NCBI GenBank assembly: GCA_024226555.1
Contig: JAAELO010000198.1
Location: 62,001 to 126,000, forward strand
Direction of reading: 5' to 3'
Origin: Desulfobacterales bacterium
GTDB taxonomy: Bacteria > Desulfobacterota > Desulfobacteria > Desulfobacterales > JAAELO01
DNA: 64,000 nucleotides
Shown one piece after another: positions 2,383 to 63,154 of the stretch. Numbering within the stretch: position 1 is the first letter of the stretch; every line of letters starts with the position of its first letter. The notes below the pieces were generated by a model, which ran no database searches, was not told the origin of the DNA, and saw nothing but the letters and a program-made list of their open reading frames with translations. Both the position numbers and the translations under genes were made by a program.

Positions 2383-2471
2383 GGGAAATTTCAAATAATT
2401 TTAAATACATAATTACTGTTTTTTTGTTTGAACTTCTTAAGTTGTTCAAAAATAAATTATTAGAGATTCCC
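2383..2471. repeat. MITE-like intergenic element, copy 1
   Basis: GGGAAATTTCAAATAATT ... AATTATTAGAGATTCCC inverted ends between two CDSs. Confidence 0.6.
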
Positions 2472-2498
2472 ATTTAAAATATTATTTTTGGAAAAATT

Positions 2499-4841
2499 AT
2501 GAAAAAGCTCTCAATTATTCTTACCATTCTTCTTTCTGTTTTAGTTTTAACCTTTTTCTTCGTAAGATATCTTAATAACTATAAGACAGATGGTGTACTT
2601 CATCTATCCAAACTGGAAAAAAATGTAAAAATCAAGCGGGATAATCTTGGTGTACCTTATATATATGGCAAAAATTTAAGAGACCTTATAAGAGGGCAGG
2701 GATTTGCTACTGCCCAGGATCGCCTTTTTCAGATGCATTTAGCAAAATTTTTTGCAACAGGCAGAATTTCTGAAATTATTGGTCAAAAAGGTATCAAATC
2801 AGATACAAAAATGAGAACTCTGGGTTTCTTAAGAAATGCAAAAAAACATCTTAAGATACTTGATAAGGAATCCATAGATTACTTAAAAAATTATGCTGAA
2901 GGCGTGAATGCGTATATAAACAGTCGAAAATCAACTCATCATCTGGAATTTAAACTTGCAGGAGTTGAACCTGAAAAGTGGAAGATGGAGGACTCATTAT
3001 CGATTTTATATTATATGGGCTGGGGATCAGCAGCAAACCTCAAAACAGAGATTATATCCACTAAAATTATTGATAAGGTTGGCTTGAGCAGATTTAGAGA
3101 GCTTCTATCATTTTCAAGCAGAAAAGAGGTTCAGTCCTATTCACAAATTGAGAAAATGTTTATTAACAAACTTGATCACTTTATGTATGACAATTTTAGC
3201 TTTGGCAGCAACAGCTGGATTACAGGGTCTAGAAAGTCTTTGAATGGGAAACCTATTTTATCAAATGACCCCCATCTTGATACAAGGATGTTACCTGGTC
3301 CGTGGTACCCATCGGTATTAATATCGGATAAGATTAGGGTAGCTGGGGTAACTTTAGCTGGGGTACCAGGAATATTTGTTGGAAGGAACAAGTGGGTAAC
3401 ATGCGGTATTACAAATTCATATGGAGATGCACAGGATCTGTATATAGAAAGAGTAAATCCCTTAAATAGTTCAGAGTATCTTGAAGGGTCTGTACAATTA
3501 CCTTTTGTAATTATAAATGAAGCCATTAAAATAAAAAATGGGTCCTCATATACAATTAAGAATATTAAAATCAGATTAACGAAGAGAGGTCCTGTTATTT
3601 CTGATGTTCTAAATGGATTTAACAAAAAAATTATAACAGTACGATGGGCTCCCTATGAATCAATGGGCAAAAATCTGGGTCTTGATTACCTTTTAAAAGC
3701 CAAGACTTTTAATGGTGTGAGGAAGATCCTGAAATCAGTTTCAATTATAAATTTAAATTTTTTAATAGCTGACAAAAATGGTAATATTGGGTTTCAAACC
3801 ACTGGCAAAATTCCAATAAGACGTAATAAGGGAGGGAGTCTACCAACAAAGGTTGTAAATAGTATTGATAATTGGAAAAAATGGATTCCGTTTGATGAAA
3901 TGCCACATGAGATAAATAGTAAAAGAGATTGGATTGGCAATGGAAATCATAAAACTGTACCCCCAAATTACCCCTATTACTATTCATCCTATTACTCTCC
4001 GTATTACAGATATCAACGTATTAGTGAGTTACTATCATCTCCTGGTAAAAAATCCAGGGAGGATCATTTTCGATTCCAACATGATACACACAATATAATG
4101 GCTCGAAGACTGGTTCCTGTTTTTACCAGCGCACTCCTGCTTCATCCGGAAACTCAAAAAATTGGAAAAACATTAAATGACTGGGATTTTGAAGACTCTA
4201 AAGACAGTGTTGGAGCTTCAATCTTTCATGAATTGTATAAGAATCTGGCCGTCCATGTTTTCCGGGATGAACTTGGACCAATTAATACAAAAAACATGTT
4301 AAATCTTTGGTATTTTTGGCAGGAAAAATATGAGAATATGCTTTTAAAAGGAAACTCAAAATGGTTTGATAACTCACTAACTTATAAAATTGAAAATCTT
4401 GAAACTTTAATTCAAAGTGCCGGATTAATAACAATAGAAAATCTAACTGAAAAGTTTGGAGAGGATATTGAGGATTGGAGGTGGAGCGAGATGCACACCA
4501 TAACCTTTACAAATCCTTTAATTAGAGATGGTTTCTTTAAAGATTTTTTTGGAACAGGTAAAATTCCATATAGTGGTTCAGTTGAAACGCTACAAAGGGG
4601 GTCCTACTCTTTCAGTAACGATTATGATACAACAATATCGGCATCAATGAGGATGGTTTCTGATTTATCTGATGATGATAAATTGCTTTTAATTATAGCT
4701 GGTGGTGTTAGCGGCAGAACATTCTCGCCACATTTTAAAGATCAGATTAAACCTTTTGTAAACGGTGAGAAAAGCTATATTTATTTCAGTGATCGTCATA
4801 TAGATAAAAATATTAAAAGTGTTCTAACTCTAAAACCATAA
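2499..4841 (+). CDS. Penicillin acylase family (Ntn-hydrolase) protein
   Basis: VKIKRDNLGVPYIYGKNLRDLIRGQGFATAQDRLFQM...; FGSNSWITGSRKSLNGKPILSNDPHL (chain-cleavage Ser motif). Confidence 0.92.
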   Translation: MKKLSIILTILLSVLVLTFFFVRYLNNYKTDGVLHLSKLEKNVKIKRDNLGVPYIYGKNLRDLIRGQGFATAQDRLFQMHLAKFFATGRISEIIGQKGIKSDTKMRTLGFLRNAKKHLKILDKESIDYLKNYAEGVNAYINSRKSTHHLEFKLAGVEPEKWKMEDSLSILYYMGWGSAANLKTEIISTKIIDKVGLSRFRELLSFSSRKEVQSYSQIEKMFINKLDHFMYDNFSFGSNSWITGSRKSLNGKPILSNDPHLDTRMLPGPWYPSVLISDKIRVAGVTLAGVPGIFVGRNKWVTCGITNSYGDAQDLYIERVNPLNSSEYLEGSVQLPFVIINEAIKIKNGSSYTIKNIKIRLTKRGPVISDVLNGFNKKIITVRWAPYESMGKNLGLDYLLKAKTFNGVRKILKSVSIINLNFLIADKNGNIGFQTTGKIPIRRNKGGSLPTKVVNSIDNWKKWIPFDEMPHEINSKRDWIGNGNHKTVPPNYPYYYSSYYSPYYRYQRISELLSSPGKKSREDHFRFQHDTHNIMARRLVPVFTSALLLHPETQKIGKTLNDWDFEDSKDSVGASIFHELYKNLAVHVFRDELGPINTKNMLNLWYFWQEKYENMLLKGNSKWFDNSLTYKIENLETLIQSAGLITIENLTEKFGEDIEDWRWSEMHTITFTNPLIRDGFFKDFFGTGKIPYSGSVETLQRGSYSFSNDYDTTISASMRMVSDLSDDDKLLLIIAGGVSGRTFSPHFKDQIKPFVNGEKSYIYFSDRHIDKNIKSVLTLKP

Positions 4842-4855
4842 AGGAGTAATAAAAA

Positions 4856-5593
4856 TTGAGAGGATATCAATCAGGTTTTGGCAACACTCTTTCTAAATCA
4901 GGAAAAAAATTTCTTATTATTTATGGAATTATATATATTGTACAACTATTATTGGAGCACTGGGTAAATATTCCAGTTACAAATTATCTTGCTTTACATC
5001 CTTTAAATAGTAACGGGTTTAAATTTTATCAATTTGTGACCCATTTCTTTATCCATAATCCTGCTAGCCCGTTTGGTTTTTTGATAAATGCTCTTGTTTT
5101 TTATTTTTTTGCTTCACAGGTTGAATCCAAATATGGGACCAGTAGTTTTTTCTCACTATTTTATATAGCAGCTATTGTTGGTGGTCTTACTGGTTTTGTT
5201 TTTGCGTTGACAGCTCAAGCTCCTTTTACACAGCCATTTTATGGAATGACTCCAAGCCTGCTCGCAATAATAGTTCTTTTTGGTTTTTTAAATCCAAATG
5301 CCACAATCCTCCTGTTTTTTGTGCTTCCGGTAAGAGCTGTTTACCTGAGTTATGGAACTATAATAATAACTGTACTTACTCTACTTGCTAAGGCCAATCC
5401 TGCTGGTGCATATCACTTAGGAGGTATTTTTATCGGATATCTTTTCCTTAAATATCCCCTTGATATATTCAACTATAAAAAACTTCATTTAAGATATCTT
5501 CAATGGCAACATAAAAAAAGAAAAAGTAAGTTTGACGTTATTGATGGAGGGTATAACGATGATGACGATGATAAAGGACCAACAATTCATTAA
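4856..5593 (+). CDS. Rhomboid-like multi-pass membrane protein lacking a canonical GxSG motif
   Basis: TTG start with AAGGAG SD; multiple TM segments; YQFVTHFFIH...GLTGFVF...FYGMTPSLLAI...AYHLGGIFIGYLF layout of rhomboids. Confidence 0.6.
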   Translation: MRGYQSGFGNTLSKSGKKFLIIYGIIYIVQLLLEHWVNIPVTNYLALHPLNSNGFKFYQFVTHFFIHNPASPFGFLINALVFYFFASQVESKYGTSSFFSLFYIAAIVGGLTGFVFALTAQAPFTQPFYGMTPSLLAIIVLFGFLNPNATILLFFVLPVRAVYLSYGTIIITVLTLLAKANPAGAYHLGGIFIGYLFLKYPLDIFNYKKLHLRYLQWQHKKRKSKFDVIDGGYNDDDDDKGPTIH

Positions 5594-5701
5594 ATAATTG
5601 CCATAGTAAACCTATACAATTCATAGTAATGCTATTCATAGATATTATTTTTTAATAACTGAAGAATTTATATGGGAATCCAATCTTTTTTGTTAAATTC
5701 A

Positions 5702-5808
5702 GGAAACCTCAAATAACAGCCTATAAAACAAAAAGCTCTAGTTTTGTTTGCATGTTTTGACCGAACTACTGCGTATTTCAATCAAAATTCTAATTATTAG
5801 AGGTTCCC
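5702..5808 (+). repeat. MITE-like intergenic element, copy 2
   Basis: GGAAACCTCAAATAACAGCCTATAAAAC...TTTTGACCGAACTACT...GTATTTCAATCAAAATTCTAATTATTAGAGGTTCCC. Confidence 0.8.
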
Positions 5809-6079
5809 TCAAGGGAAAAATAAAAACAGAGAGCACAGATCTAATACTTTACTACTTTAATCGACCTTGAAAGTTTTTAAACGATTGAATTAACTATATA
5901 TAATTAAATATGTTTTTTTTGTGAGTATTATCTTGACCTATTGATTTATTCAAGTTATCTTATTGCTTCCACATTGATTTTGTGCAGTAAAATAAATAGG
6001 TTAAATTTTTTTAAATCGTTTTTAAATTAGAGTATTATTATTTAAAAAAATTAATATTAAAATTTATTAGGTGTTAAGC

Positions 6080-6358
6080 ATGAATAAACTTGAATTAATT
6101 TCAGCCCTTCAAAACAATGCAGATATTGGTAAATCAGATTCTGCAAAAATTATTCAGATTTTTTTTGATTCCATGGCAGATGCACTTTCAACAGGTGACC
6201 GTGTTGAAATAAGGGGCCTTTGTAGTTTTCATGTGAAAGAGTATAAGGGCTATATGGGTAGAAATCCAAAAACAGGAGAAAAGGTTTTTATTAAACCCAA
6301 AAAATTACCTTTTTTCAAGTGTGGAAAAGACCTGAGAGATCAATTAAACAATATGTGA
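6080..6358 (+). CDS. HU/IHF family DNA-binding protein
   Basis: MNKLELISALQNN...DSMADALSTGDRVEIRGLCSFHVKEYKGYMGRNPKTGEKVFIKPKKLPFFKCGKDLRDQLN; the ORF track starts 9 nt upstream at a GTG. Confidence 0.95.
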   Translation: MNKLELISALQNNADIGKSDSAKIIQIFFDSMADALSTGDRVEIRGLCSFHVKEYKGYMGRNPKTGEKVFIKPKKLPFFKCGKDLRDQLNNM

Positions 6359-6381
6359 TTGGAAGGTTTTCTGACAATTTA

Positions 6382-6996
6382 ATGAAGTTCTTAAAAACAA
6401 CATTATATCTGTTTATTGTTTTTTTTTGTGGTTATCTCTATGCTGGCCCAAATATTCAAAACTATGAACAGGCCGTTTTGGAGAAGCCGGATAGTTCCAA
6501 TGCTCACCTTGCGCTTGGAAGAGCTTACCAGCATGACAATAAACCATTTAAAGCTATAAAATCATTAAAAAAAGCAATTGACCTTGATTATGGAAATGAA
6601 ACAGCTCATATTTTTTTAGGAGAACTATACTATAATAAAGGTCAGTTTGATTTGGCATCAATGCATTATGAAAAAGCATTAAAGATCAATGGCTGCGCAG
6701 CATATTACAACTATTATGGTAATGCTCTGACAAAAAATGAGAAACTTACTCTTGCTATTAAATCATATAAGAAAGCAATATCACTTGATCCTGATAATCC
6801 TCTTTTTTACTATGGTCTTGGATATGTTTATAGAAAAACAGGTAAATTTAAAGAGTACAAAAAAATATCACTAAAGCTATTAAAACTTGATAAGGATTTT
6901 GGAAACAAACTAAAAAATGATTCTGAACTATTTGCCGGAAAATCAAGTATTAGTATAAAATTTGTTAAAGAGAAACGTACTAACAATAATGATTAA
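6382..6996 (+). CDS. TPR repeat protein with N-terminal signal sequence
   Basis: Start at MKFLKTTLYLFIVFFCGYLYA...; TPR units SNAHLALGRAYQHDNKPFKAIKSLKKAIDLDYGN, AYYNYYGNALTKNEKLTLAIKSYKKAISLDPDN. Confidence 0.85.
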   Translation: MKFLKTTLYLFIVFFCGYLYAGPNIQNYEQAVLEKPDSSNAHLALGRAYQHDNKPFKAIKSLKKAIDLDYGNETAHIFLGELYYNKGQFDLASMHYEKALKINGCAAYYNYYGNALTKNEKLTLAIKSYKKAISLDPDNPLFYYGLGYVYRKTGKFKEYKKISLKLLKLDKDFGNKLKNDSELFAGKSSISIKFVKEKRTNNND

Positions 6997-8145
6997 CGAT
7001 CCCAATAGAAAAGCATATCTTAATTCAAGATAATCCATTGTAATTCCCGCAATTAGCGATCCTGTAAGCATCCCCATACTTTGTCCCAGAGTGAGTATTC
7101 CCATTACAGAACCCATAGCTTTAACTCTGTTTCCAGAACGAACAGCAATTGCCATTAAGGCTGGCATTGAAATACCTCCACCAATTCCAAATACAAATAC
7201 AGCAAAAATAAGGTCATAGAAACTATTCGATATAAAAATGAGAGCCAGTGATATGGCAACAATAAACCCTCCTGCATTAACCATTTTTCTCCTTGAGATT
7301 TTATCCGCCAGGTGCCCAAGAGGTGTGTTTAAAATACCACTAAGAAAAACTCCAGATGTTACGAGAACTCCAATTTTTCCACTTGAAAGATTGAACTCTT
7401 TATCTGCAAAAACAGGAATAAAACACCATATTATAGCAATACATATTGTATAACCCATTCTGAATATAAAAATGCTTAAGATCTCATTATCTTTAAAAAA
7501 CTTACTCCAGGAATCATCCTGATTCTTGCTCTTCTTTTTCTCAAGAGATTTATGAGGGAGAAAAATAATTGATGCCAGAAAAGCTACAGTAGATAGAATT
7601 CCCATACAAAGAAATGTTACAGTCAGACCATCTTTTATTATTTCACCCATAAATAAAATTTGTCTGCCATCAAAAAAATCTGAAATATATCCACCGGCAA
7701 GAGGGCCAATGCTTAAACTTATAAATATGGACATATTGAAAAGCCCCATATAATATCCCTCTTTTCCCTTGGGGGTTATATCACCAACATAAGCCTGGGT
7801 TACTGGCATTATCATAGCTGATGCTATACCCTGCATAAAACGGATTATTATAAGAGAATCCATACTATTAAAGTATATAAAAGCAAGAGATATCAGAGTG
7901 TAGCAAAATAGGCCAATTGCAATGAAGGGTTTTCTCCCGTATTTATCTGAACGTTTACCAAAGTATGGGAGGAAAAAAGTTCTTGAGATTGAAAATGATC
8001 CAAATATCATACTTATGTAAAAACCGCTTGCTCCAAGATCATGAGCATATACAGGAAGGAGGGGAATTACAATTCCAACACCTAAGGTTGCATTGAATAT
8101 TGAGAAAAATAGAACCGCAAATATTTTTTTATTATAAAAAGACAC
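6943..8145 (-). CDS. MFS transporter
   Basis: 12-TM pattern; GKRSDKYGRKPFIAIGLF and GHLADKISRRKMVNAGG MFS loop motifs. Confidence 0.93.
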   Translation of the reverse strand: MSFYNKKIFAVLFFSIFNATLGVGIVIPLLPVYAHDLGASGFYISMIFGSFSISRTFFLPYFGKRSDKYGRKPFIAIGLFCYTLISLAFIYFNSMDSLIIIRFMQGIASAMIMPVTQAYVGDITPKGKEGYYMGLFNMSIFISLSIGPLAGGYISDFFDGRQILFMGEIIKDGLTVTFLCMGILSTVAFLASIIFLPHKSLEKKKSKNQDDSWSKFFKDNEILSIFIFRMGYTICIAIIWCFIPVFADKEFNLSSGKIGVLVTSGVFLSGILNTPLGHLADKISRRKMVNAGGFIVAISLALIFISNSFYDLIFAVFVFGIGGGISMPALMAIAVRSGNRVKAMGSVMGILTLGQSMGMLTGSLIAGITMDYLELRYAFLLGSLIIIVSTFLFNKFYTNT

Positions 8146-8166
8146 TGACGCCTGCTTAAAGATCTT

Positions 8167-9570: not shown

Positions 9571-9656
9571 ATAGCAAAACCTTAACTTATAAAAACATTT
9601 AGTGAACCTTTAGCGAGTTTGCAATTATTATCGGACGTTAATGGGAAATACTTAGG

Positions 9657-9689
9657 GGGAACTCTAATAACTGCTTATTAGAAGTTCCC
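9657..9689. repeat. Minimal member of the MITE-like family: terminal hairpin only (copy 3)
   Basis: GGGAACTCTAATAA-CTGC-TTATTAGAAGTTCCC. Confidence 0.65.
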
Positions 9690-9704
9690 TTTAGATAAAA
9701 CAAT

Positions 9705-11246: not shown

Positions 11247-11411
11247 TAAAATACAAAAAAGCTACATGTTTATTGTTTTTAAGTTTGTTAATTTATGAAA
11301 TAGATTTTGTTGAAGTCAAACCATTGTTTTTTCTAAAGAATCTTATTAAATATACATATATTATGGTATTAAGTCAAATTTGTACCCTGGATATTTATAT
11401 TTAGATTATAA

Positions 11412-11566
11412 GGGGGTATACCTAACCTCCACCTTTTTTCCGAACGAATGCATTAAAAAGAACTGTTATAAAATCAACCTTTTATTTTTTTCTAATGCTA
11501 AGCCTTTATAAAACTTAAAGCTTTTATAATTTGTATTTCAATCAAAATTCTAATTATCAGAGGCCC
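11412..11566 (+). repeat. MITE-like intergenic element, copy 4
   Basis: AAAAAGAACTGTTATAAAATCAACC...AAAGCTTTTATAATTTGTATTTCAATCAAAATTCTAATTATCAGAGGCCC; left boundary approximate. Confidence 0.65.
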
Positions 11567-11652
11567 ATAAATAATTAGAGACTTGCCAAAAAACCTAAAA
11601 TTATTATATATTTAAATTATACTTTGTTTAATTAATATTAGGAGTTAAAACT

Positions 11653-11814
11653 GTGGCTGAAGATGATGACAAAGATGATAAAGAGAAAAAGCCAATAACG
11701 TTTGGTGAAAATCGGGAAAAAATTTGTGAGAGATGTAAAACTATATGGCCAGGTGGATTGTTTTGTAGATTTTGTGGAGGAAGACTTCTTATAGCAGAAT
11801 CAGTTGAAGATTAA
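11653..11814 (+). CDS. 53-aa zinc-ribbon-like small protein (absent from supplied ORF track)
   Basis: GTG start 7 nt after GGAG; MAEDDDKDDKEKKPITFGENREKICERCKTIWPGGLFCRFCGGRLLIAESVED with CxxC...CxxC; followed by hairpin. Confidence 0.7.
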   Translation: MAEDDDKDDKEKKPITFGENREKICERCKTIWPGGLFCRFCGGRLLIAESVED

Positions 11815-11845
11815 TTAAAAAGTATTTATATCATTATTAAAAAAT

Positions 11846-11879
11846 AAAACCCCTTTTTCTTAAATGAATCAGGGGTTTT
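11846..11879. terminator. Terminator-like hairpin between convergent genes
   Basis: AAAACCCC-TTTTTCTTAAATGAATCA-GGGGTTTT. Confidence 0.7.
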
Positions 11880-16105: not shown

Positions 16106-16234
16106 GGGAATCTCTAATAACCGTCTTTTAACCAAACTACTGTGCTTTAGGAAAAAAGAACTGTAGTAAAATCAATCCTTTATTTTTTTCTCAGCCTTGT
16201 ATTTCAATCAAAATACTAATTATTAGAAATTCCC
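16106..16234 (+). repeat. MITE-like intergenic element, copy 5
   Basis: GGGAATCTCTAATAACCGTCTTTTAACCAAACTACT...GTATTTCAATCAAAATACTAATTATTAGAAATTCCC. Confidence 0.85.
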
Positions 16235-24198: not shown

Positions 24199-24355
24199 GG
24201 GCAATTTCTCTTAACAATCTACCTTTGATTGAACCAAAGCGTATGGGAAAAATAACGAACTGATTCGTTTATAATAAAGCTTAATTTTTATAAACATACA
24301 GTTCTTTATTTTAATAACGTAATATTTCAGTCAAAAGACAGTTATTAGAGACGCA
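24199..24355. repeat. MITE-like intergenic element, copy 6 (degenerate ends)
   Basis: AATAACGAACTGATTCGTTTATAATAAAGCTTAATTTTTATAAACATACAGTTCTTT...AATATTTCAGTCAAAAGACAGTTATTAGAGACGC, resembling interiors of copies 10 and 11. Confidence 0.55.
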
Positions 24356-24399
24356 CTCCTTGTGATTCATTTAAATAATTAGCGAAAAAGGAATTTAAG

Positions 24400-27234: not shown

Positions 27235-27394
27235 GGTAATCTCTTATAAATTGCCTTTTGATCGAACTACTTATGTTGTTCAGAAAATAGAACAACAGGA
27301 TTATTTCAAAAAAAGAACTGTGTTTATAAAAATAAGACCTTTTATAAACATGACCTTTGTATTTCAATCAAAATTCTAACGATTAGAGGTTTCC
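27235..27394 (+). repeat. MITE-like intergenic element, copy 7
   Basis: GGTAATCTCTTATAAATTGCCTTTTGATCGAACTACTTATGTTGTTC...GTATTTCAATCAAAATTCTAACGATTAGAGGTTTCC. Confidence 0.8.
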
Positions 27395-27466
27395 TACAGG
27401 TTATTTAATTAAAGCAATGAATTCTATTGTTTTTTCATTGTTAGCTTTGGATAAGGAGGTGATTTA

Positions 27467-29541: not shown

Positions 29542-29639
29542 AGGACATCTAAAAACTACTCTTTTGAACAAATACTGCGCAAAACTAAAAGCTTTTACAA
29601 TCTGTATTTGAGTCAAAACTCCAATTATTAGAGGTTTCC
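29542..29639 (+). repeat. MITE-like intergenic element, copy 8
   Basis: GGACATCTAAAAACTACTCTTTTGAACAAATACTGCGC...GTATTTGAGTCAAAACTCCAATTATTAGAGGTTTCC. Confidence 0.75.
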
Positions 29640-33792: not shown

Positions 33793-33899
33793 AGGAGACT
33801 CGTTCCTTGATAGGTTCCAATACCAATAATTCCTACAGTTCTTATGTTTTTGTAATATAGTTTCAGGCCTTTGGTAAAAGGCGGTTATTAGAGATTCCC
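33793..33899. repeat. MITE-like intergenic element, copy 9 (left end degenerate)
   Basis: Right end GGCGGTTATTAGAGATTCCC. Confidence 0.45.
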
Positions 33900-37670: not shown

Positions 37671-37829
37671 GGGAATCTCTAATAATTAGAATTTTTGATG
37701 AAAAACAAGGCATAACAAAAAACAACGGGTTTATTCGTTTATAAAAAAGGTTTTATTTTTATAAAGTTTACAGTTTTATTTTTGTTATAACGCTGTGTTT
37801 CGCAAAAAGATCAGTTATTAGAGATTCCC
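37671..37829 (-). repeat. MITE-like intergenic element, copy 10
   Basis: GGGAATCTCTAATAATTAGAATTTTTGATGAAA...AAAAGATCAGTTATTAGAGATTCCC, flanked by TTAA on both sides. Confidence 0.85.
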
Positions 37830-39448: not shown

Positions 39449-41860
39449 TTATCTCCCAATCGATAATGCTGGGTCAAACTTACCCGATACAATTGGACTT
39501 TGAGCATTTCTTGTTGCTCTTCTGACTTTTTGTGAAATATATGGCATTAATTCACCAAGATTTACATTTTTATCCTTATTATAATCAGCTTTGCCTTTTA
39601 GACCCTGAAGCAGAAAATATGTAAAAACCCCATGCCCTTTACCCCATTTACTACTTTCCTGGGACATCTGTTTATCATCTGATGCACTTATTACACAAAC
39701 CCCATCTCCTATTTCAGATAAGTTCTGGAATCCTGCATTTATTTTATTTATTTTTAATCCCCTGTTACTTCTTCGGGCAATTTCGAATGTTTGCCCAACA
39801 CCTCCTGAATGGCAGGCATCAGCTATAATTACCACTTTTTTAGCTTTAATAAATCTTTTTATCGCTGTCTCGATATCCCACATGGGAAATCCACTCGAAG
39901 CAATATCATCATATTGAGCATCATAGGGGAGTAAAAACAGGTTGTTTGTGGAATCAGGAGAATCTGGTGATCCATGCCCTGCGAAATAGATGGTAACGAT
40001 ATCTTCTTCAAGTGCTCTTTTTAACCATGTGAAAAGAGCATTTCTAATATTTCGACCTGTTGCTTTTTTATCAGTTAATATCAAAACCTGAGAAGGTGGA
40101 TATCTCCCTCCCTTTGAAGATGTAAGCCATGAGTAGAATGCTATTGCATCTTTTTTCGCATACCTTAAAGAAGGGATGTGCGAATCTTCATACTCTGATA
40201 TTCCAATAACAACAGCCCACCTTTTGCTTTGAACATTTACATTTTTAGCTGTTTCTTTCTTATCTGCAGCTATAAAGTTTCCCCCCATTATTGAGGATAA
40301 AGCATATGCTATTTTTGGTGGTTTTTTTGTTACAGTTATCCTGTTTATATCAACCCTCACCTTTGTTTGTAAAACAATTCCAACTTTCTTACCAAACATT
40401 TTCTGATAAGGAATTTCATTTACAATATGCCCGTTTACATAAAACCTGTATTTGTTACCCGATTTTTCAACAGCAAGAGAATTTTTAGCATTCTTCTTTT
40501 TAACATAACCTGAACTGGTCCAATCAAAGATGTCGTGTAGTTTATTATCTATCCATTTTCCAGCTACATACGAACCATTTCCACTTATTCCAAAATAAAA
40601 ACAATTCTTAGTATTTTTTATACCCCAGGCAATACCATACACATTATTGTTTTTTCCACTTACTTTTTCAAGCTCAACCTCAATTTTATAATCACCTGTT
40701 TCATCAAAGTCTGGAATAGTATCAGGCCAGGCGAAAGTGACCCCTTTTTCTGATTTTTTTCTAAAGATGAATTTTCCATTCTGAATTTTTTTAAAATAAT
40801 CTTTGCTATCTTTTTCATCCCACCCATGTCTGTTTGTCTCAAATTTTTCTTCAAATATTTTTACATTTTTCAGGTTATTCAGTGACCATCCGGAACGACT
40901 TAGATTAACAACGGCTTTTTTATATTCTCCCTTTGCAACATTTGCTTCAGCAATTTTAAGATATGTGGATCTTTCACTAAATCCATATTTTGTTGAAAGC
41001 TTCTGGTATGAATAATAGTAACCCTTTTCAAGAACAACAGATAGAATTTCATTTTGTATATCTTTAATATTTGGTAGTTTCTCAATTAATATACTGTCAT
41101 ACTCAACTTCTATTTTACTATTAACATGAAAGGCAATTTTATTACCTGATAAATCACCATATTTGATCTTATTAACAAATCTGTCATTTATAAATAGTTT
41201 ATATAAATTACCATTTTTTTCTATTGTAATCTTATTAGCAGAGTTCAGCTTATTAATATGGGATGACTGGGTCCAACCTATATAGTTCTTAAATTTACCT
41301 TTACGTGATCCCCCAAAATAGTATTGTCCAAAACCATTAATCCCAAATTCACAGTAGTTGCTAACGTCTTTAAGGCCCCATGAAACAGCATATCCGAAAT
41401 TATTAACTCCACTGATTTTCTTCATTTTTACTGTGATACGATAATTAATATCTTTTTCCAATTTAAAGGAAGGCCATGTAAAATAAGAATTTTTACTTTT
41501 GTGATTAAAATAAAATTTACCATTTTTTACACCATAGTCTACATCTGCATCATCTCTTTCAAGCCAGTTATTCCTGTTACTAATGAAATCATCGCTAAAT
41601 AAAATTTTCTGATTCTTTTTGAGATATACTCTTTCAGCTGAATCAAAATCTTTCTTTGATATATAAATATCAAAAAGTTTTTGAAAGTTAGAGGAGCGCT
41701 CTTCTCCTGTAAGATTTTCACAAAAGTTTTCAAGTCCTTTTAAATTATTATTTTTAATCATTTCATCAGCAATAGTGTCAGGAGTTTTTTTTGAACAGGA
41801 GGTTAAAATTATTAAAAAAGAAAATAAAACTAAATAAATCAGATATTTGAATTTCATCAT
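39449..41860 (-). CDS. Caspase-like (peptidase C14-type) lipoprotein with tandem LamG/DUF1080-like domains
   Basis: Lipobox LIILTSCSKK; KRWAVVIGISEYED...IYFAGHGSPDSPD...VVIIADACHSGGVGQ (His/Cys dyad); two homologous FSDDFISNRNNWLERDD / FEEKFETNRHGWDEKDS domains. Confidence 0.88.
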   Translation of the reverse strand: MMKFKYLIYLVLFSFLIILTSCSKKTPDTIADEMIKNNNLKGLENFCENLTGEERSSNFQKLFDIYISKKDFDSAERVYLKKNQKILFSDDFISNRNNWLERDDADVDYGVKNGKFYFNHKSKNSYFTWPSFKLEKDINYRITVKMKKISGVNNFGYAVSWGLKDVSNYCEFGINGFGQYYFGGSRKGKFKNYIGWTQSSHINKLNSANKITIEKNGNLYKLFINDRFVNKIKYGDLSGNKIAFHVNSKIEVEYDSILIEKLPNIKDIQNEILSVVLEKGYYYSYQKLSTKYGFSERSTYLKIAEANVAKGEYKKAVVNLSRSGWSLNNLKNVKIFEEKFETNRHGWDEKDSKDYFKKIQNGKFIFRKKSEKGVTFAWPDTIPDFDETGDYKIEVELEKVSGKNNNVYGIAWGIKNTKNCFYFGISGNGSYVAGKWIDNKLHDIFDWTSSGYVKKKNAKNSLAVEKSGNKYRFYVNGHIVNEIPYQKMFGKKVGIVLQTKVRVDINRITVTKKPPKIAYALSSIMGGNFIAADKKETAKNVNVQSKRWAVVIGISEYEDSHIPSLRYAKKDAIAFYSWLTSSKGGRYPPSQVLILTDKKATGRNIRNALFTWLKRALEEDIVTIYFAGHGSPDSPDSTNNLFLLPYDAQYDDIASSGFPMWDIETAIKRFIKAKKVVIIADACHSGGVGQTFEIARRSNRGLKINKINAGFQNLSEIGDGVCVISASDDKQMSQESSKWGKGHGVFTYFLLQGLKGKADYNKDKNVNLGELMPYISQKVRRATRNAQSPIVSGKFDPALSIGR

Positions 41861-53483: not shown

Positions 53484-53495
53484 TAGGAGACAGTT

Positions 53496-54488: not shown

Positions 54489-55072
54489 ACAGAAAAAACC
54501 TAGCAATACTGATATTTGATGATGTGGAAGTTATGGATTTTGCAGGACCCTTCGAGGTCTTTTCAGTGACAGATGAACTCAGTAACCATGAACTTTTAAA
54601 TGTGTATACTGTGGGTCAAAAAGCTACTATACGAGCCAAAAACGGGCTTAAGGTTGTACCGGATTACTCTCCCAAGAATTGTCCTGCGCCGGATTATCTT
54701 CTTATTCCAGGTGGATCTGGAACCCGTCCATTACTGAAAGATGAGAAACTCCTGCATTGGATAGTTCAAATTGCAGAAAATTGTGAAAATGTACTATCTG
54801 TTTGCACAGGTTCTCTTGTTCTTGCCAAAGCAGGTCTGCTTAAGGGACTGAAAGCGACCACTCATCACGAGGTAATCGGGGAACTTGAAGAGATGGCTCC
54901 TGAAACGGAAATCGTTAAAGATCAGCGTTTTGTGGATAATGGAAAAATACTCACATCGGCTGGTGTGGCTGCGGGTATCGATATGTCTTTATATATGGTA
55001 AGTCGTCTCTACGGAGAGGAGATGGCTGTAAAAATAGCTAAATACATTGAGTATAGAGTAACTAATAATTAG
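54485..55072 (+). CDS. DJ-1/PfpI family protein (isonitrile hydratase-like)
   Basis: NLAILIFDDVEVMDFAGPFEVFSV...LSVCTGSLVLAKAGLLKGLKATTHHE; ATGA overlap with upstream gene. Confidence 0.92.
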   Translation: MNRKNLAILIFDDVEVMDFAGPFEVFSVTDELSNHELLNVYTVGQKATIRAKNGLKVVPDYSPKNCPAPDYLLIPGGSGTRPLLKDEKLLHWIVQIAENCENVLSVCTGSLVLAKAGLLKGLKATTHHEVIGELEEMAPETEIVKDQRFVDNGKILTSAGVAAGIDMSLYMVSRLYGEEMAVKIAKYIEYRVTNN

Positions 55073-55312
55073 ATTTTGACTGAAATTCAGATTATAAAAA
55101 CTTTTAGTTTTATAAAATCTCTGCATTTGAAAAAATAACGAACCAGCTCGTTTATAAAAAGCTTTAATTTATAAACATTACAACAGTTTTTTTTGTAACA
55201 CTCTGTTGTTTTTGTTTCTTTTTAAAACAATTCAGATGTTTTGTTTTTTAAAACAACGATAAGTAGTTCGGTTAAAACAAAACTAAAGCCTTTTGTTTTA
55301 TAGGCAGTGCCT
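55055..55312 (-). repeat. MITE-like intergenic element, copy 11 (long form, inverted, outer right end truncated)
   Basis: CTAATAATTAGATTTTGACTGAAATTCAGATTATAAAAACTTTTAGTTTTATAAAATCTCTGCATTTGAAAAAATAACGAACC...AACAACGATAAGTAGTTCGGTTAAAAC, near reverse complement of copy 14. Confidence 0.8.
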
Positions 55313-55397
55313 TACAACTATAATTCGAAATTATAAAATATTCATGATTAGATTACTAAGAGGGCCTAAACCCTCTTGTAAAATATATTAGAACTCT

Positions 55398-57395
55398 TTA
55401 ATACTTAAACAATCCAACTATATCATTTAGCTTAATAGCCATATCTTTAAGATCTTCAACACTTGCTGCAACCTGATCACTGTTTTGAGAGATCTCATCT
55501 GCAGCTGTATCCATTGAAGCAAGATCTTTTGTTATTTCGTTTAGAGCTGTTGAGCTTTCAGAAACATTGTTATTTACATCTCCAATTCCACTTGAAACCT
55601 GACTTACATTTTCAGATATTTCAGTTGTGGCAGCTGATTGTTCCTCAATTGCAGTTGCAATAGTAGTAATTATACTGTTTATTTCATCCATTATTCCTGA
55701 GACATTTTGAATCTCAGAAATTGTTTCATGAGTTGTTCCCTGTACGCCTTCAATCTTATTTCTAATTTCACCAGTCGCTGAAGCTGTTTGGGATGCAAGT
55801 TCTTTAATTTCATTTGCCACAACGGCAAAACCCTTTCCTGCTTCACCAGCTCTTGCAGCTTCAATTGTAGCGTTAAGTGCCAGCAGGTTTGTCTGGTCTG
55901 AAATATCTGTGATAGCATCAGTAACTGTTGATATTGCATGAACAGAAGATCCAAGCTCATTCATCATATCGGACGCTCCCTTCATTTGAGTCAGTGCAAC
56001 ATTTGAAACACTTCTTGCTCTTTCTGAATTTTTTGCTATTTCATTTATTGTAACTGTCATCTCTTCTGTGGCTGTTGCAACCACATGCGTATTATGATCT
56101 GTTTGCTCCATAGTTGCTGCCACAGAAACCATATTACTACTCATCTCTTCAGATGCGCTCGCTACAGTATTTGCAAGCAGCGATGAATCTTTTGCACCAG
56201 ATGCCATTTTTTGCGCAATACCTAAAAGTTTTGCTGATGAATCATCCACAACAAAAACATTAGCTGCAAGATCTTTTATTATACCCTGAAGATTGTTGAT
56301 AAACTTGTTAAACCATTTAGCAAGGTCTCCAAGTTCATCATTTGAATCTATTTCAAGTCTTTTGGTAAGATCTCCTTCTCCCTCAGCTATACCTTTAAGC
56401 ATTGCTGTTGCCCGACCAATAGGCTTTGCAAGTGATGATGCTATGAAATATGCAAGTACAGCAAAAGCTCCGGCCAAAATTATACCAATAACCGCCATGA
56501 TTGAAAGCATTGAGTAAACCTGTGAAATTACTTCACTCTTTTTTACAAGCCCTACCAATTTCCAGCCAAGATTAGTTGAAGTTACTTTAGCAACATAACT
56601 AACTCCATCAATTTCGATCTCAATGTCTCCTTCTTTAACTTCAGCGATCTTTGCAAAGGCAGGAATATTTGACTTGCTCAACTTTTTAAAGATAGTTTCT
56701 GGTTTGTCAGGGTTAGCAAGAATAACTCCATCGTCCTGAATTAGCATGACATAACCACTTTTTCCAACTTTAATTGTTTGGATGAAATCAGTCAGCGCAT
56801 TTAATGTAACATCAAATGCAACTACCCCAATTTTATCACCACTTTTACTTACAGATTGTGCCACACTGATAACGGCATCGCCGGTTGTTGATTTATATGC
56901 TCTGGTTACGTGGGGAACTGATTTTGAGACGGCTTGTTTATACCATGGTCTTACTCTTGGATCAAAGCCAGGTGGTAGGGCACTATTGCTGGCCATTGTA
57001 AATCCACCAAACTTTGTACCCATATATACTTCAATATAGTTCTTATGGGTTTGGTTAACATTATTAAAAAAGTCCAGAATTTTCTTCTCTACAGAACCAG
57101 CTTTATCATATGAAACTGATCCTTTCTCTTTTAGGTTTATAAAAGAGTTAATAGATTCATCAGCCTGGGTTACATCTGGATGTTTTGCCATCATATCAGC
57201 ATTCTCTTTGATGTCATCAAAAAATATGGAGATAGCTTTTTCAACATGTGAAAGTTCATTTCCTGTGGATATATAAAATTTATCCAGAGAATCTTTTTGA
57301 ATGTTGTAACCAAGAATAAGACATAGCAGTAGAATTGGAACAATAGCAGAAGCCAGAAAACCAAAAATCAATTTTTTTCGAATAGTCACTCTCAT
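55398..57395 (-). CDS. Methyl-accepting chemotaxis protein (Cache sensor, HAMP, signalling domain)
   Basis: Cache-type [57 protein letters not shown]. Confidence 0.97.
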
Positions 57396-57914
57396 TTTTA
57401 TGATCCTTACAATATTATTTTAAATCAGGAAAATTTATAGATATTAAGTAATTTTCTGTAATTTTCCTGACAAGTTAGCTTGTATAAATAAAAAAGCGAT
57501 GAACCATAAATTAGCAAAGTAAAAAAGTAAAACATTTTTTACGAAAAAGCATTTGCTAAAGCATGAGACATTTTATATCTACTTGATTTATTTAAGGATT
57601 TAACTTTATTAAAAATTAAGGCTTATTGTCTTTTACTTAAATTGTCAGGACTGAAGAAATTTAAGTATGTATTAATTATTTAGTTATCTACAACCCATCT
57701 TTTATCTCAGGTTTTCTATGTAATTTAGTTACATCCAAGAGATATAAGCAATGTAACAATGTTTACTTCTGGGACTAATCCATAATCACAACCGTTACAC
57801 AATAACAGCTTTGAAATTCATACTTTTTGTAGTAAAAGATTTAAAGGGATGACTATAAAGGACTTAATTATGAAGTTTGGAGTTGGGGACGCATAAGGAG
57901 AAAAAAAAATGGTA

Positions 57915-57931
57915 GGGCGAAATAATCGCCC
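57915..57931 (-). terminator. Terminator-like hairpin for the lipoprotein gene
   Basis: GGGCGA-AATAA-TCGCCC; on the minus strand followed by a T-rich stretch. Confidence 0.5.
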
Positions 57932-57944
57932 AAAGTATTAAAAT

Positions 57945-58265
57945 CTAATTTTTCTTCATTTTATTTCTCACTTCTTCAGCCATTGCAAAAATTTCTTTAG
58001 CAGTTTTACCATTAAGCTTAGCGCCAACCTCTTTTTGAATCTGCTCTCCACTCTTTTTTCCCATGTTTGAAATTGCTTCTATCATGTAAAGACCGGTAAC
58101 AGATTCCTGGAGTTTTTTCTGATCCTCAGGAGATAGTTTAACCATCATTTTCTGCATTGATGACGCCATGGTTTCTTTACTGGATGTATCCAATGTGGGA
58201 TCTCCACCACAAGCTACAAGAAGTAATGAAATTGTTATTAATAGTGCTATAGCTGTTTTTTTCAT
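57945..58265 (-). CDS. Small lipoprotein
   Basis: MKKTAIALLITISLLLVACGGDPTLDTSSKETMASSMQKMMVKLSPEDQKKLQESVTGL; lipobox LVAC. Confidence 0.85.
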   Translation of the reverse strand: MKKTAIALLITISLLLVACGGDPTLDTSSKETMASSMQKMMVKLSPEDQKKLQESVTGLYMIEAISNMGKKSGEQIQKEVGAKLNGKTAKEIFAMAEEVRNKMKKN

Positions 58266-58306
58266 ATTTTTTCTCCTGATTTGGTATTGAAAATGTTATT
58301 TTTTAA

Positions 58307-58496
58307 ACCGCCTATCAGTTTTGTTTGTTTTAACCGAACTACTTATCGTTGTTTAAAAAACAAAACAACAGAGTATATTACAAAAAAAAAACTGTTCTAA
58401 AACCGGTTCGTTATTTTTTCTAATGCAGAGATTTTATAAAACTAAAAGCTTTTATAATCTGAATTTCAATCATAATTCAAATTATTAGAGGTTCCC
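58307..58496 (+). repeat. MITE-like intergenic element, copy 14 (long form)
   Basis: AACCGCCTATCAGTTTTG...TTTTAACCGAACTACTTATCGTTGTTTAAAAAACAAAACAAC...GAATTTCAATCATAATTCAAATTATTAGAGGTTCCC; left boundary approximate. Confidence 0.8.
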
Positions 58497-58619
58497 ATAA
58501 ATCTGAATCAACTTAAACATCATTATACACATATTATTGAAAATATATATCTATATTATTTACTTCGGGAACCTTTGAAGGTTCTGCATAAATAAATACT
58601 TTTTTACATTTATACTGGC

Positions 58620-58853
58620 TTATATAGCATTCTCCATTTGACTACTTGTCAGAGTATGACGAATTTCAGTAAAAGTTTTTGTATAAAGATAAACTATCTC
58701 ACCATCTAATTCTCCAAATGAGCGGGATAAGCTAATCACTTTATCCTTATCAATTTTCTGACCATTAAAATATTTTCTTATTTCCCTTACAATGGTGATT
58801 CTTTCGATCGTTCCATCTTTTTTCATTTGTTGTTTATAAACAATCAAAAACAT
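58620..58853 (-). CDS. Small hypothetical protein
   Basis: 77-aa ORF MFLIVYKQQMKKDGTIERITIVREIRKYFNGQKIDKDKVISLSRSFGELDGEIVYLYTKT; plausible coding composition. Confidence 0.45.
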   Translation of the reverse strand: MFLIVYKQQMKKDGTIERITIVREIRKYFNGQKIDKDKVISLSRSFGELDGEIVYLYTKTFTEIRHTLTSSQMENAI

Positions 58854-58922
58854 TTATTCCGGTTAACATGGACATTAAATTACTGATCCCGGTTTTATAT
58901 TCAGTCAAAGGACAATTATAAT

Positions 58923-59265
58923 ATGGATATTAAAAAGCAAATTCCTGTCTTATCAATGAATATTTATAGTGAAGCCCTAAGAGTTAACGCTTTGGATCTA
59001 TACAACTACAGTGTAAAATATCGTTTAAAGAATGGATAGAGGATTTGATAGAAGGTTATAAAGGACTTCATGAATACATCGTTATACATGAACCCGCGGT
59101 AGGAGATGTGACCCTATTTTGGTTTATTACATCAACCTGAGACTTGCTAAAACAGCCGCACTACGTGCCGCGTCTACTCAGGGAGAGAAGGCATATGAGC
59201 ATTTAAAAAAGTCTAAATCCTCAGGTTTTTTAAGTGTTCCAATTGCAATATCGCTCATTCTCTGA
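58923..59265 (+). pseudogene. Possible decayed gene remnant
   Basis: Coding-like stretches in different frames (MDIKKQIPVLSMNIYSEALRVNALDLYNY; ISFKEWIEDLIEGYKGLHEYIVIHEPAVGDVTLFWFITST; INLRLAKTAALRAASTQGEKAYEHLKKSKSSGFLSVP) interrupted by stops. Confidence 0.35.
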
Positions 59266-59515
59266 TTTACCTTTAAAAAAGTATTACTAAATAGTTTTAA
59301 TTAGATCAGGTTTTATGAGCAGGAATATGGTTTTATATTTATAGGCTTAAAACTTGAATTCAAATAAAACTTAAAAAGATTTTATTTGTGGCATAACGCC
59401 GTAATTAACCAAAAGAACAATCATAAAATGCTATTGTTAGTTTATAGGATTTGGTTTATTATGTGGGTTATTTTAATATCGTGTATTTTGTAAAACTTCA
59501 GAGGAGTGACTATAA

Positions 59516-60187
59516 TTGGCTGATCCCAAGAAAACCCTTGTAGATATTGCTTACGAAAAAATATTTCAGGATATAATGACTTTTAAATTTAAACCGGGAA
59601 TGAGGCTTGAAGAGAAAACTCTGATGGATGAGTATGATATTGGAAGAACGCCCATTAGAGAGGGTCTTATGCGTCTTGAAACTGCTATGATAGTTGAATC
59701 TCAATCCGGGAAGGGTTATATGGTCAAGCCAATAACTCTTCAAAGTACAAAATCCATATTCGAAACACTTTTGATCCTGGAGCATGGTGTGGCTGATCTT
59801 GCAATTAAAAGAAACATTGAGCCATATCTGGAGTCAATGGTTAATGCCAACAAGAAAATGGAAGAGGCTGCAAATAATTTTAATCTTTTAACACTGGTTG
59901 AGAAAAATCATCTCTTTCATGAGAAATATACTGAATGCTCTGGTAATGAATACCTGATACATGGACTGATAGCGGTTCGCTGTGAAGCAAGGAGGCTTGC
60001 ATTTCTATCCTATAGTGAAAGAATTGAAGACCAGAAGGCTTTAAGAAAGCATTACAATACAGTTATAAGAGAACATAAAGAGATGGTTATGTATCTTAGT
60101 GTAAAGGATTGCGATGCCCTTAAAAAAGTCATTACAAACCATATCAATGCCTTTAAGGAACGAGTAATAAACTACCTTATGAACTGA
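59516..60187 (+). CDS. GntR family regulator (FCD/FadR type)
   Basis: TTG start, GAGGAG SD; YEKIFQDIMTFKFKPGMRLEEKTLMDEYDIGRTPIREGLMRLETAMIVESQSGKGYMVKPI. Confidence 0.93.
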   Translation: MADPKKTLVDIAYEKIFQDIMTFKFKPGMRLEEKTLMDEYDIGRTPIREGLMRLETAMIVESQSGKGYMVKPITLQSTKSIFETLLILEHGVADLAIKRNIEPYLESMVNANKKMEEAANNFNLLTLVEKNHLFHEKYTECSGNEYLIHGLIAVRCEARRLAFLSYSERIEDQKALRKHYNTVIREHKEMVMYLSVKDCDALKKVITNHINAFKERVINYLMN

Positions 60188-60481
60188 TTCTTAAGTGTTT
60201 TTTGTCTAAATATCCAGCAATGTTATTCTATCTATTCCAAGTTTTGAAAAAAACTGATAAGCCGGCTTTAACATAACCATAAGTTTTTGATTAAACTTTT
60301 TTTAAAAAGTTTACTGCTTATAGAGTAAAAAAAAATTTGTTATTCGTTTCTGAGCTCTTTCCTGTATTACCCCTAATAACACAACTCTAAAAAGAATAAA
60401 TATATTTCTGTATTATTTTAATATGTTATAATTCGAATTAGTGTATTATTGTATAAAACTAGAAAAGAAGGAGTACTTAAA

Positions 60482-60730
60482 ATGGATTCCAAATTATTAT
60501 CGAAAGTTTTAGGTTGGAGTGCCATATTTAATATGGCAATGTTGGTTTTGTGGTCATTAATGTTCTTCTTTGGTCAGGACCTGATTTATTCTATTCACGT
60601 AAAGTGGTTTGAACTTTCAAGGGAATCTTTTAATACAATTCACTACTGTGGCATCATTTTCTATAAATTGATCATTTTTACATTTTTTATATTTCCATAT
60701 CTTGCATTGAGGTTAGTTAATAGATTCTGA
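60482..60730 (+). CDS. Small membrane protein
   Basis: MDSKLLSKVLGWSAIFNMAMLVLWSLMFFFGQDLIYSIHVKWFELSRESFNTIHYCGIIFYKLIIFTFFIFPYLALRLVNRF; TM segments. Confidence 0.75.
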   Translation: MDSKLLSKVLGWSAIFNMAMLVLWSLMFFFGQDLIYSIHVKWFELSRESFNTIHYCGIIFYKLIIFTFFIFPYLALRLVNRF

Positions 60731-61654
60731 AGTTACGGTGAGTATTTTGTCATCATACTCTTTAAAAATATCGATTTGAAAACCACCATTCAAGAAGCTT
60801 ACGCCATCATGGGTTTCGGCCCATATTTTTGCTTTAATTATCCCTTTATCTTCGTCCACTTCGACTATTTCAAGTTCACCATCTTCGAAAATAACATTAT
60901 CTGTTATGTTAAAAAAACATCTGACTACAGTTGCGTTTTCCTTCTCAACATTTACACCAAGCACATTGATATCGTATTTATTTACCAGATTTTTCTTAAT
61001 AGAAAAGGTCACATTGGGATAATTTTCAGAACTGTTACTTAGATCTATAAATGGTTTATATACATTGTATAATAACACCTGCCATTCATCATCCACACTT
61101 AAAGCAAAGCCTGACTTGAAATTAAACTCATTATTATTTACAGATCCTTGTAGAACCTTATTCTCAAACAGATTGGTATTTAAACGATTTGAACTTCCTT
61201 TGATATCGATAATAAACTCTCCATTTATTTCACTTTTTCCATCTTTTGTTTTTGCCCACATTCTTGCTGTGAGCTTTTTCTTTTTTAAATCTGTTCCGAT
61301 AATTTCAAGTTCTCCACTTTCGAAAACAGAGGCGCTGGTTTTGTTTTGCCAACCTGTTGCTATTGTCCCTTTTCTCCCTGGATCATATACACCAATTTTA
61401 TTTATATCATAAAATTTATAGTCTGAATCTTTTTGAACAGAAAATGAGATGTTTGGATAGTTATCATTCTCATCTGATTTGCCGATGTTTATTTTGTCAT
61501 ACTCAACTTCATAACCATAAAGAAGAATTGTCCATTTATTTCTTGGATCAAACAGGTTTTTTAAAGCATATCCTGATTTAAAAACAAACTCTTTTTCTCC
61601 AATATGTCCCTGTAGGACCTGATTTTTATGTTTTTCCATTTTTTTGATATCCAC
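60713..61654 (-). CDS. Hypothetical protein with tandemly duplicated domain
   Basis: KNQVLQGHIGEKEFVFKSGYAL...ENDNYPNISFSVQKD...ESGELEIIGTD / NKVLQGSVNNNEFNFKSGFAL...SSENYPNVTFSIKKN...EDGELEIVEVD. Confidence 0.75.
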   Translation of the reverse strand: MDIKKMEKHKNQVLQGHIGEKEFVFKSGYALKNLFDPRNKWTILLYGYEVEYDKINIGKSDENDNYPNISFSVQKDSDYKFYDINKIGVYDPGRKGTIATGWQNKTSASVFESGELEIIGTDLKKKKLTARMWAKTKDGKSEINGEFIIDIKGSSNRLNTNLFENKVLQGSVNNNEFNFKSGFALSVDDEWQVLLYNVYKPFIDLSNSSENYPNVTFSIKKNLVNKYDINVLGVNVEKENATVVRCFFNITDNVIFEDGELEIVEVDEDKGIIKAKIWAETHDGVSFLNGGFQIDIFKEYDDKILTVTSESIN

Positions 61655-61660
61655 TTTATA

Positions 61661-61715
61661 GGGAATCTCTAATAATTAAATAGCTACAAATATAGAAATA
61701 TGTAATAAATTCCTA
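61661..61715. repeat. MITE-like family, possible short copy 12
   Basis: GGGAATCTCTAATAATT left end exact; weak right end GTAATAAATTCC. Confidence 0.4.
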
Positions 61716-61870
61716 TAAATCAATGAAGTGAATCACATACCCTTAAATGAATTACAACTATCACAAAAAAAACAGCTTTAGTAAAAAAATTACATGTTGT
61801 ATTATTAAAAGATCGAATTGAAGGGCTTGATTATCGATAAAAATCTTATTCTACAAGCGAGCAGGAAACT

Positions 61871-62350
61871 ATGAGAATTACATTTAAAATCATATCTGTT
61901 GTAATTTTATTAAATCTATTCGTTCCTTCGTTATTTGCAAACCAGATTCCTTTAATAAATAAAAGAGTTAAGGAGATAGATCGAAGTATTAAAAAAGGAA
62001 CCTATTCAGTTATTAAAGTAGAGAATATTATAAAAAGTCTTGAAGGAGTTCCACCGACAATCTTTTTTTATTATAAACCTAAAGACGGAAAACTTGTTGC
62101 TGTAAAAATCCATGTGGGACATGAAACATGGAGTAAAACATTCTCATACTATTTCGATAGGAGGGAAAAAATCCTTAAATATCTTGAATCGATTGACAGA
62201 CCTGATAATCCACCAAAAAGGGCTGTGATTTATGATAAAGACAGTAAGGTAATATGGAAAAATATTGATAAACCAAAAATTGGCCCATACAACATTTGGG
62301 GTTTCTTTAAAAAAGCTATGCACCATCAAATTGAATTTTCAAAATACTAA
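61871..62350 (+). CDS. Exported hypothetical protein
   Basis: Signal peptide MRITFKIISVVILLNLFVPSLFA. Confidence 0.75.
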   Translation: MRITFKIISVVILLNLFVPSLFANQIPLINKRVKEIDRSIKKGTYSVIKVENIIKSLEGVPPTIFFYYKPKDGKLVAVKIHVGHETWSKTFSYYFDRREKILKYLESIDRPDNPPKRAVIYDKDSKVIWKNIDKPKIGPYNIWGFFKKAMHHQIEFSKY

Positions 62351-62352
62351 AC

Positions 62353-63102
62353 ATGAAAAGGTCTATAGTTTTAATCATATTAATAATCTTGTTACTCAGT
62401 TCAACTGGTTACAGTTTGGAAGAGGAGTACCATGATCTTGTCATCGACTTTAAAAAATCATTTGAAAGAAGAAGTGAGGTTGTTAAGTACGTTAAGCTTC
62501 CTTTTGTCATGGACTATCCAATTCCCGATATAAAAACTGAAGAGGAACTTTTAATAAGATATAAAGAGGTATTTGACCCTAGAATAACCGGTCTTGTTAT
62601 TCGTTCAAGTTTGAGGAGAGATTGGAAGGCAAAGGGTACTCGTGGAATTACGATGAAAAATGGGATGCTATGGCTTGATTACAACGGCAAAGTTATAAAG
62701 ATTAATCACCAGACCAAACTTGGAAAAAGGAAGAAACAAAAAATTATTCAGCAATCAAAAAGATTGTTACATTCAAGTATCAGGAAATTTGTATCACCAG
62801 TCACAACATGGAAAACCCGAAATTTTAAAATTAGAATAGACAAAATGGGTGGGAATAAGTTCAGATATGTTGCCTGGGCAAACAGCAAAGAGAGAATAGA
62901 CAAACCCACTCTGATTTTGAGAAATGGAAAAGCATCAAAAGGTGGTGCAGGTGTTTTTTACGTGTTTAAAACTGATACATATATTTATAAATGTTTCTTA
63001 AAAGCAATTAAATCAAGCAGAGAAGCTCCTGGAGATCTCAGAGTTTTTAAAAAGAGCAGACTTATACTCCATGAAAAGGCGATAAAAGTTATAAAGCCAT
63101 AA
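62353..63102 (+). CDS. Exported hypothetical protein
   Basis: Signal peptide MKRSIVLIILIILLLSSTGYS; 2 nt after the upstream stop, so likely co-transcribed. Confidence 0.75.
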   Translation: MKRSIVLIILIILLLSSTGYSLEEEYHDLVIDFKKSFERRSEVVKYVKLPFVMDYPIPDIKTEEELLIRYKEVFDPRITGLVIRSSLRRDWKAKGTRGITMKNGMLWLDYNGKVIKINHQTKLGKRKKQKIIQQSKRLLHSSIRKFVSPVTTWKTRNFKIRIDKMGGNKFRYVAWANSKERIDKPTLILRNGKASKGGAGVFYVFKTDTYIYKCFLKAIKSSREAPGDLRVFKKSRLILHEKAIKVIKP

Positions 63103-63119
63103 CTCTTCCTTAACAGTAG

Positions 63120-63154
63120 ATTTTTCAATCATTGAATACTTATTAGAAATTCCC
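63120..63154 (+). repeat. MITE-like family, solo right end (copy 13)
   Basis: ATTTTTCAATCATTGAATACTTATTAGAAATTCCC. Confidence 0.5.

Follow-up and report, generated by a model that had tools for sequence, protein, structure and literature searches.

The intergenic DNA of the Desulfobacterales genome GCA_024226555.1 (7.69 Mb in 904 contigs) is populated by a repeat family that very probably comprises a recently active, non-coding MITE which inserts in AT-rich intergenic targets with a 4-bp TWWA duplication, folds as a long hairpin, and carries shuffled internal modules. Several features of the MITE class are present: the elements are short and non-coding, possess terminal inverted repeats, are bounded by target duplications of fixed length, and occur as many dispersed copies. 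The family was recognized in the window, a 64,000-nucleotide stretch spanning positions 62001–126000 of contig JAAELO010000198.1. A previous sequence-only reading of the window proposed a non-autonomous, MITE-type mobile hairpin that had expanded in this genome, and this view is upheld by the terminal repeats, the 4-bp duplications, the identical dispersed copies and the lack of coding capacity described here.

Within the window, the terminal sequence TTATTAGAGRTTCCC was matched 22 times with three or fewer mismatches compared to 5.6 matches expected, and none of 100 shuffled sequences reached 22. Six copies had been credited with a shared 36-bp right end. Four possess this end either exactly (5773–5808) or with three mismatches (beginning at 16199, 27359, and 58461) where the chance expectation is 0, and the ends at 11533–11566 and 29604–29639 are genuine but more decayed, with more than three differences. 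Of the sites listed in the sequence-only reading, the ends-only element and the long copy near 55055–55312 are present, and those at 33885–33899, 61661–61675, and 63140–63154 are single or partial ends only. The copies and ends in the window are as follows, with the modules (I to IV) described below.

2383–2471, strand unassigned: probable degenerate copy with an exact right end and a weak left end, below the reach of nhmmer at E 1e-3
5702–5808, plus strand: 107-bp copy, both ends and module I retained, middle of the core deleted
9656–9689, plus strand: ends-only hairpin of 34 bp
11423–11566, plus strand: decayed copy with a module-IV-like hairpin
16106–16234, plus strand: complete 129-bp copy with no modules (nhmmer, 95 bits)
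24222–24356, minus strand: decayed copy with module III
27235–27394, plus strand: older 160-bp copy, diverged at both ends, with modules II and III
29547–29639, plus strand: decayed copy, right half best preserved
33831–33899, minus strand: partial copy with one exact end (33885–33899) and ~55 bp
37671–37829, minus strand: complete 159-bp copy of a young subfamily with module III, TTAA on both flanks
55055–55312, minus strand: long copy in a decayed state that retains modules I, II, III, and IV but has eroded terminal repeats
58300–58496, plus strand: older copy with modules II and IV, left end lost, right end exact
61661–61675, strand unassigned: solitary exact terminal repeat, then unrelated DNA
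63140–63154, strand unassigned: solitary terminal repeat with one mismatch

The complete copy at 37671–37829 is 97% identical to a module-free copy elsewhere in the genome (L124:11389). The two solitary repeats at 61661 and 63154 were considered as the ends of one long element, but the pair encloses two non-transposase ORFs and lacks a target duplication.

The search was extended to the whole genome, which the sequence-only reading had named as a check that could refute its claim of a dispersed family. Rather than a few copies, 1,217 exact matches to TTATTAGAGRTTCCC were recovered compared to none for the reversed control pattern, and 252 exact end pairs spanned 117–145 bp. Together with the window shuffles, these counts leave no room for chance similarity of AT-rich intergenic sequence as an explanation. 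In a 1.41 Mb sample of the genome, 217 end pairs produced a sharp length mode at 128–130 bp, and HMM matches fell at 327 separate loci. Scaling of these loci by the exact-end counts extrapolates to ~1,150 detectable copies genome-wide, or ~1 per 7 kb and roughly 2% of the genome, which exceeds the MITE copy numbers in the available portion of a 2024 review, for example 711 copies of ERIC in Photorhabdus (PMC10969869). Certain contigs have edges within copies (L042:4377–4505 and L106:2–130; the starts of C307, C314, and C615; the ends of C11, C39, and C89). Thus, the element is itself a cause of assembly breaks, which helps to explain their frequency, and the copy number is a lower bound. Copies occur in both orientations as previously noted (61 one way and 68 the other), and only 8 of 195 overlap an ORF compared to 78.5% of random positions. 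The 1.41 Mb sample also contains dozens of solitary terminal repeats, many of which are followed directly by unrelated DNA. These many single, unpaired ends count against the MITE reading, as a simple MITE history does not account for them.

Evidence for mobility was provided by the flanking DNA. Exact 4-bp duplications flank 117 of 211 end pairs compared to 13.6 expected with shuffled flanks, with no excess of 3- or 5-bp duplications among the same pairs. The target consensus is TWWA, with Y preferred before and R preferred after it. Five identical copies are located at five sites, four of which have perfect duplications (TTTA, TAAA, ATAT, and TATG). From what is established about DDE-type transposases, the 4-bp duplications and the identical dispersed copies indicate that such an enzyme inserted the elements recently. 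Acting in trans, the transposase would cut at the element ends, and insertion with a 4-bp stagger would generate the TWWA duplication. No nested insertions with clean host halves were found. It is extremely improbable that the family instead is a single-strand HUH mobile hairpin of the IS200/IS605 type as in REPtrons: strong hairpin ends, high copy number and intergenic location fit such an element, but HUH transposition makes no target duplications. Clear 4-bp duplications are evident here, contrary to the expectation for REP/BIME and IS200/IS605 elements of a single-strand hairpin substrate without duplication, and inverted termini are present at both ends.

The core of the mobile element is 129 bp and is bounded by imperfect terminal inverted repeats, GGGAAYCTCTAATAA, of 15 bp with a mismatched extension to ~38 bp. 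The consensus folds end to end as a long imperfect hairpin. Compared to shuffled sequences, the mean z-score was −5.7 for full-length elements and a moderate −2.0 for the interior. By contrast, RNAalifold with the full alignment recovered only the terminal stem, because the subfamilies are out of register, and arm pairing was therefore tested by permutation. Left arms paired with their own right arms at −14.4 kcal/mol compared to −11.8 kcal/mol with permuted arms, although the associated z-score of −8.3 overstates the strength of the effect as related copies are not independent. In subfamilies, a change on one arm is matched on the other, as in ACC/GGT, AACA/TGTT, and TTCC/GGAA (alignment A1). 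This co-variation can reflect either selection for pairing or conversion between the arms.

The co-evolving arms raise the alternative that selection maintains the family as a structured RNA or a regulatory hairpin similar to REP/BIME or bcr elements, with a transcript that acts as a terminator, mRNA stabilizer or small RNA, and that mobility is only its origin. Self-complementary modules in unpaired positions (see below) are in keeping with this proposal, as are the shorter distances of copies from the 3′ ends of genes (median of 78 bp, compared to 134 bp for 5′ ends) and the orientation of 59 of 91 copies in tandem gene pairs against the direction of the genes. Nevertheless, the alternative is considered unlikely: the convergent, divergent, or tandem gene context of copies is close to that of random intergenic DNA; many copies have decayed, and no fixed position is common to them; an Rfam scan of the window yielded only tRNAs above the gathering score and no match to the element; and gene conversion between palindrome arms can also produce arm similarity.

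Optional hairpin modules of 27–37 bp, of which a copy may contain up to four, largely determine the length of the mobile element. The length classes (129, ~157–163, ~190, and ~220 bp) correspond to zero to four modules, alone or in combination, at fixed sites in the core, at positions ~19 (I), ~40 (II), ~62 (III), and ~90 (IV). Each module is a small hairpin; modules I, III, and IV share a GCTTTWAG-like loop and have different self-complementary stems. With site limits set by hand, the module sites were mostly unpaired in the core fold (mean unpaired probability of 0.72), a value matched by ~0.2% of random choices.

Pairs of closely related copies differ by single modules. The copies at L100:7945 and L119:18702 are distinguished by module IV, 35 bp of which replace CT, and those at L047:14036 and L049:3 by module III, 32 bp of which replace GTAA; both pairs are 98–99% identical elsewhere. 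Module presence also barely tracked the core phylogeny. The number of changes on the core tree compared to shuffled states was 32 versus 32.4 for module IV, 18 versus 21.0 for III, 6 versus 7.9 for I, and 13 versus 14.6 for II, with slight clustering of I and III. A control arm motif clustered on the same tree with 6 changes versus 48 shuffled. Thus, modules appear to have been repeatedly gained, lost, or swapped. The most likely route for switching between near-identical copies would be gene conversion or homologous exchange within this large set of elements; alternatively, a side hairpin may be lost during replication. The near-identical copies constitute a natural experiment on shuffling by gene conversion, structure-dependent deletion or transposition, and are suited to testing the effects of hairpins on neighboring transcripts.

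The sequence-only reading had attributed the range of lengths to internal deletion derivatives. This description suits copies shorter than ~125 bp, which look like deletions, but not the main length classes that comprise zero to four discrete modules. A fuller version of the proposal, in which the modules were shed one after another from an ancestor of ~250 bp that had the complete set and the short form subsequently became dominant, merits some credence although it is not favored. Target duplications were retained by ~20% of copies with two or more modules compared to 66–70% of those with one or none, and the former therefore probably are older, as this scheme envisages; furthermore, very short copies such as 9656–9689 plainly are deletions. 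By contrast, the scattered state of the modules on the core tree, as in the values for module IV and the control motif, argues against this scheme, although repeated loss may contribute, and the short forms CT (for IV) and GTAA (for III) recur across several subfamilies and are not simple direct-repeat deletions. Repeated gain, loss, or swapping of modules within a mobile core remains the preferred reading. Mobility of the modules in their own right received no support: each module had six or fewer blastn matches outside elements, and nearly all of those inspected lay in decayed elements. A possibly isolated module-I-like hairpin is located at L047:1367. Separately, in a decayed copy at ~935–1219 on L085, module I is accompanied by an additional hairpin (AATGTTGTGAATGCTCCGCATTACACTGAGT) and half of module IV is repeated in tandem.

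A search of window ORFs revealed no transposase, in agreement with the sequence-only reading. The parent element that it suggested should be sought, a full-length copy with the same termini around a transposase, did not emerge from the genome either: no autonomous partner with these ends, a point against the MITE reading, was detected across six Pfam transposase families (PF01609, PF05598, PF13586, PF13359, PF13701, and PF13546) in an assembly of 904 contigs that often breaks in the repeat. Six DDE_Tnp_1 (PF01609) transposases were present; their contigs lack these ends, and for four of the six the inverted repeats are clear and unrelated to those of the family. DUF772 (PF05598), DDE_Tnp_1_2 (PF13586), and DDE_Tnp_4 (PF13359) produced no matches in the genome. 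DDE_Tnp_1_4 (PF13701) produced two sub-threshold matches to the same proteins, and DDE_5 (PF13546) one match on C13, all without these ends. Long ORF-bearing end pairs were screened in 1.41 Mb by HMM ends and in 0.65 Mb by the terminal pattern with a matching duplication, in which only two pairs stood out. One, L089:14947–18141, is 3.2 kb with two host genes and TCAA on both sides; the second, L031:11685–12247, is 563 bp with an apparent remnant of a GGDEF gene and TATA on both sides. As ~1 chance match is expected, neither was taken as an element, and the latter possibly is a captured gene piece or chance. Other genes in the window include those for a DACND-DACNH-DAC diadenylate-cyclase-like protein with a weak match to an anti-phage model (8167–9570, minus strand) and a caspase-domain protein of 803 aa of the EACC1-associated type that scored below the curated cut-off (39449–41860, minus strand).

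The RUP elements of Streptococcus pneumoniae and Correia elements of Neisseria are intergenic MITEs that form hairpins with terminal inverted repeats and that duplicate a 2-bp TA. The comparison with these elements drawn in the sequence-only reading holds as an analogy of style alone: the window family duplicates 4-bp TWWA sites, is present in far more copies, and had no sequence relative in the plasmid or phage collections or among the other Desulfobacterota sampled, apart from the related Desulfobacterales family described below. RUP ends resemble those of IS630-Spn1 (PMC3049150). The pneumococcal BOX is a closer structural analogy. BOX elements likewise are modular, small, mobile, dispersed, and variable in length, with an optional boxB module that folds largely alone within a larger hairpin (PMC3049150). 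However, BOX has one module type, located between boxA and boxC, whereas the window family has four different modules at fixed sites. The boxA-boxB(n)-boxC arrangement with tandem boxB was not seen as modules normally are single, with the exception of the repeated half-module on L085. There are 125 BOX copies per genome (PMC3049150) versus ~1,150 here, and the likeness is structural. The bcr1–bcr3 repeats of the Bacillus cereus group, a different host, are similar by description only as MITE-like intergenic repeats, and often are transcribed in UTRs (PMC3446304). Thiomargarita nelsonii is also a large environmental bacterium with many hairpin MITEs that have no identified parent (PMC4853749), but the direct repeats of its hupL MITE are 10 bp and the inverted repeats 19 bp, and the type in the dsrA intron ends in TATAG (PMC4853749), which differ from the ends of the window family. 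No earlier description of the family or its modular behavior was found in the open-access literature searched. The MITE kind is already known; the family with its modular hairpin interior is new.

Exact TTATTAGAGRTTCCC ends were absent from 39 genomes of the same order and exact end pairs from 394 genomes of the same phylum. Searches of plasmids and viral contigs yielded no match to the family, and the one phage match was insignificant. With a shorter end pattern, a homologous 141-bp family (D family), for which no published name was found, was detected in 6 genomes among 389 others of the Desulfobacterales, with copies in Desulfospira joergensenii DSM 10085. The D family has the terminal repeat CTCTAATAATTAG, shares 36 of 46 positions at the left end and 32 of 46 at the right end with the window family, and also combines a long hairpin with 4-bp duplications (TAAA, TACA, TTAT, TTAA, and TATA at several copies). 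The alignment score between the families was 122.5 compared to 82.5 ± 7.2 with the interior shuffled. The resemblance therefore extends significantly past the terminal repeats, and the families are homologous. The D family is distinguished by its outer bases (GGGTAYC/GGTGGCC), its center (CCGGAGGAATATATTGAATATTTCGAGG), and its low copy number. A 400-kb sample of one such genome contained only three loci, and the window genome thus represents a large local expansion. The conserved D center, CGGAGGAATAYA...TATTTCGAGG, is not shared by the window family, in which 26 of 52 middle positions agree, and the D center pattern was not matched among the window-genome loci examined. Plasmid CP026659 of Deltaproteobacteria bacterium Smac51 bears elements in which a D-type center is joined to other ends, GTCATTTCATAAATA...TATTTATGAAATGAC, at three places.

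1298–1418: D-type center with different ends
3712–3830: D-type center with different ends
27278–27398: D-type center with different ends

The window family therefore combines D-type ends with a new center and the Smac51 plasmid a D-type center with new ends, which suggests exchange. It is tentatively proposed that the folded MITE may be the unit of selection, with a co-evolving scaffold, docking sites and exchanged modules, and with ends and centers also exchanged across Desulfobacterota.
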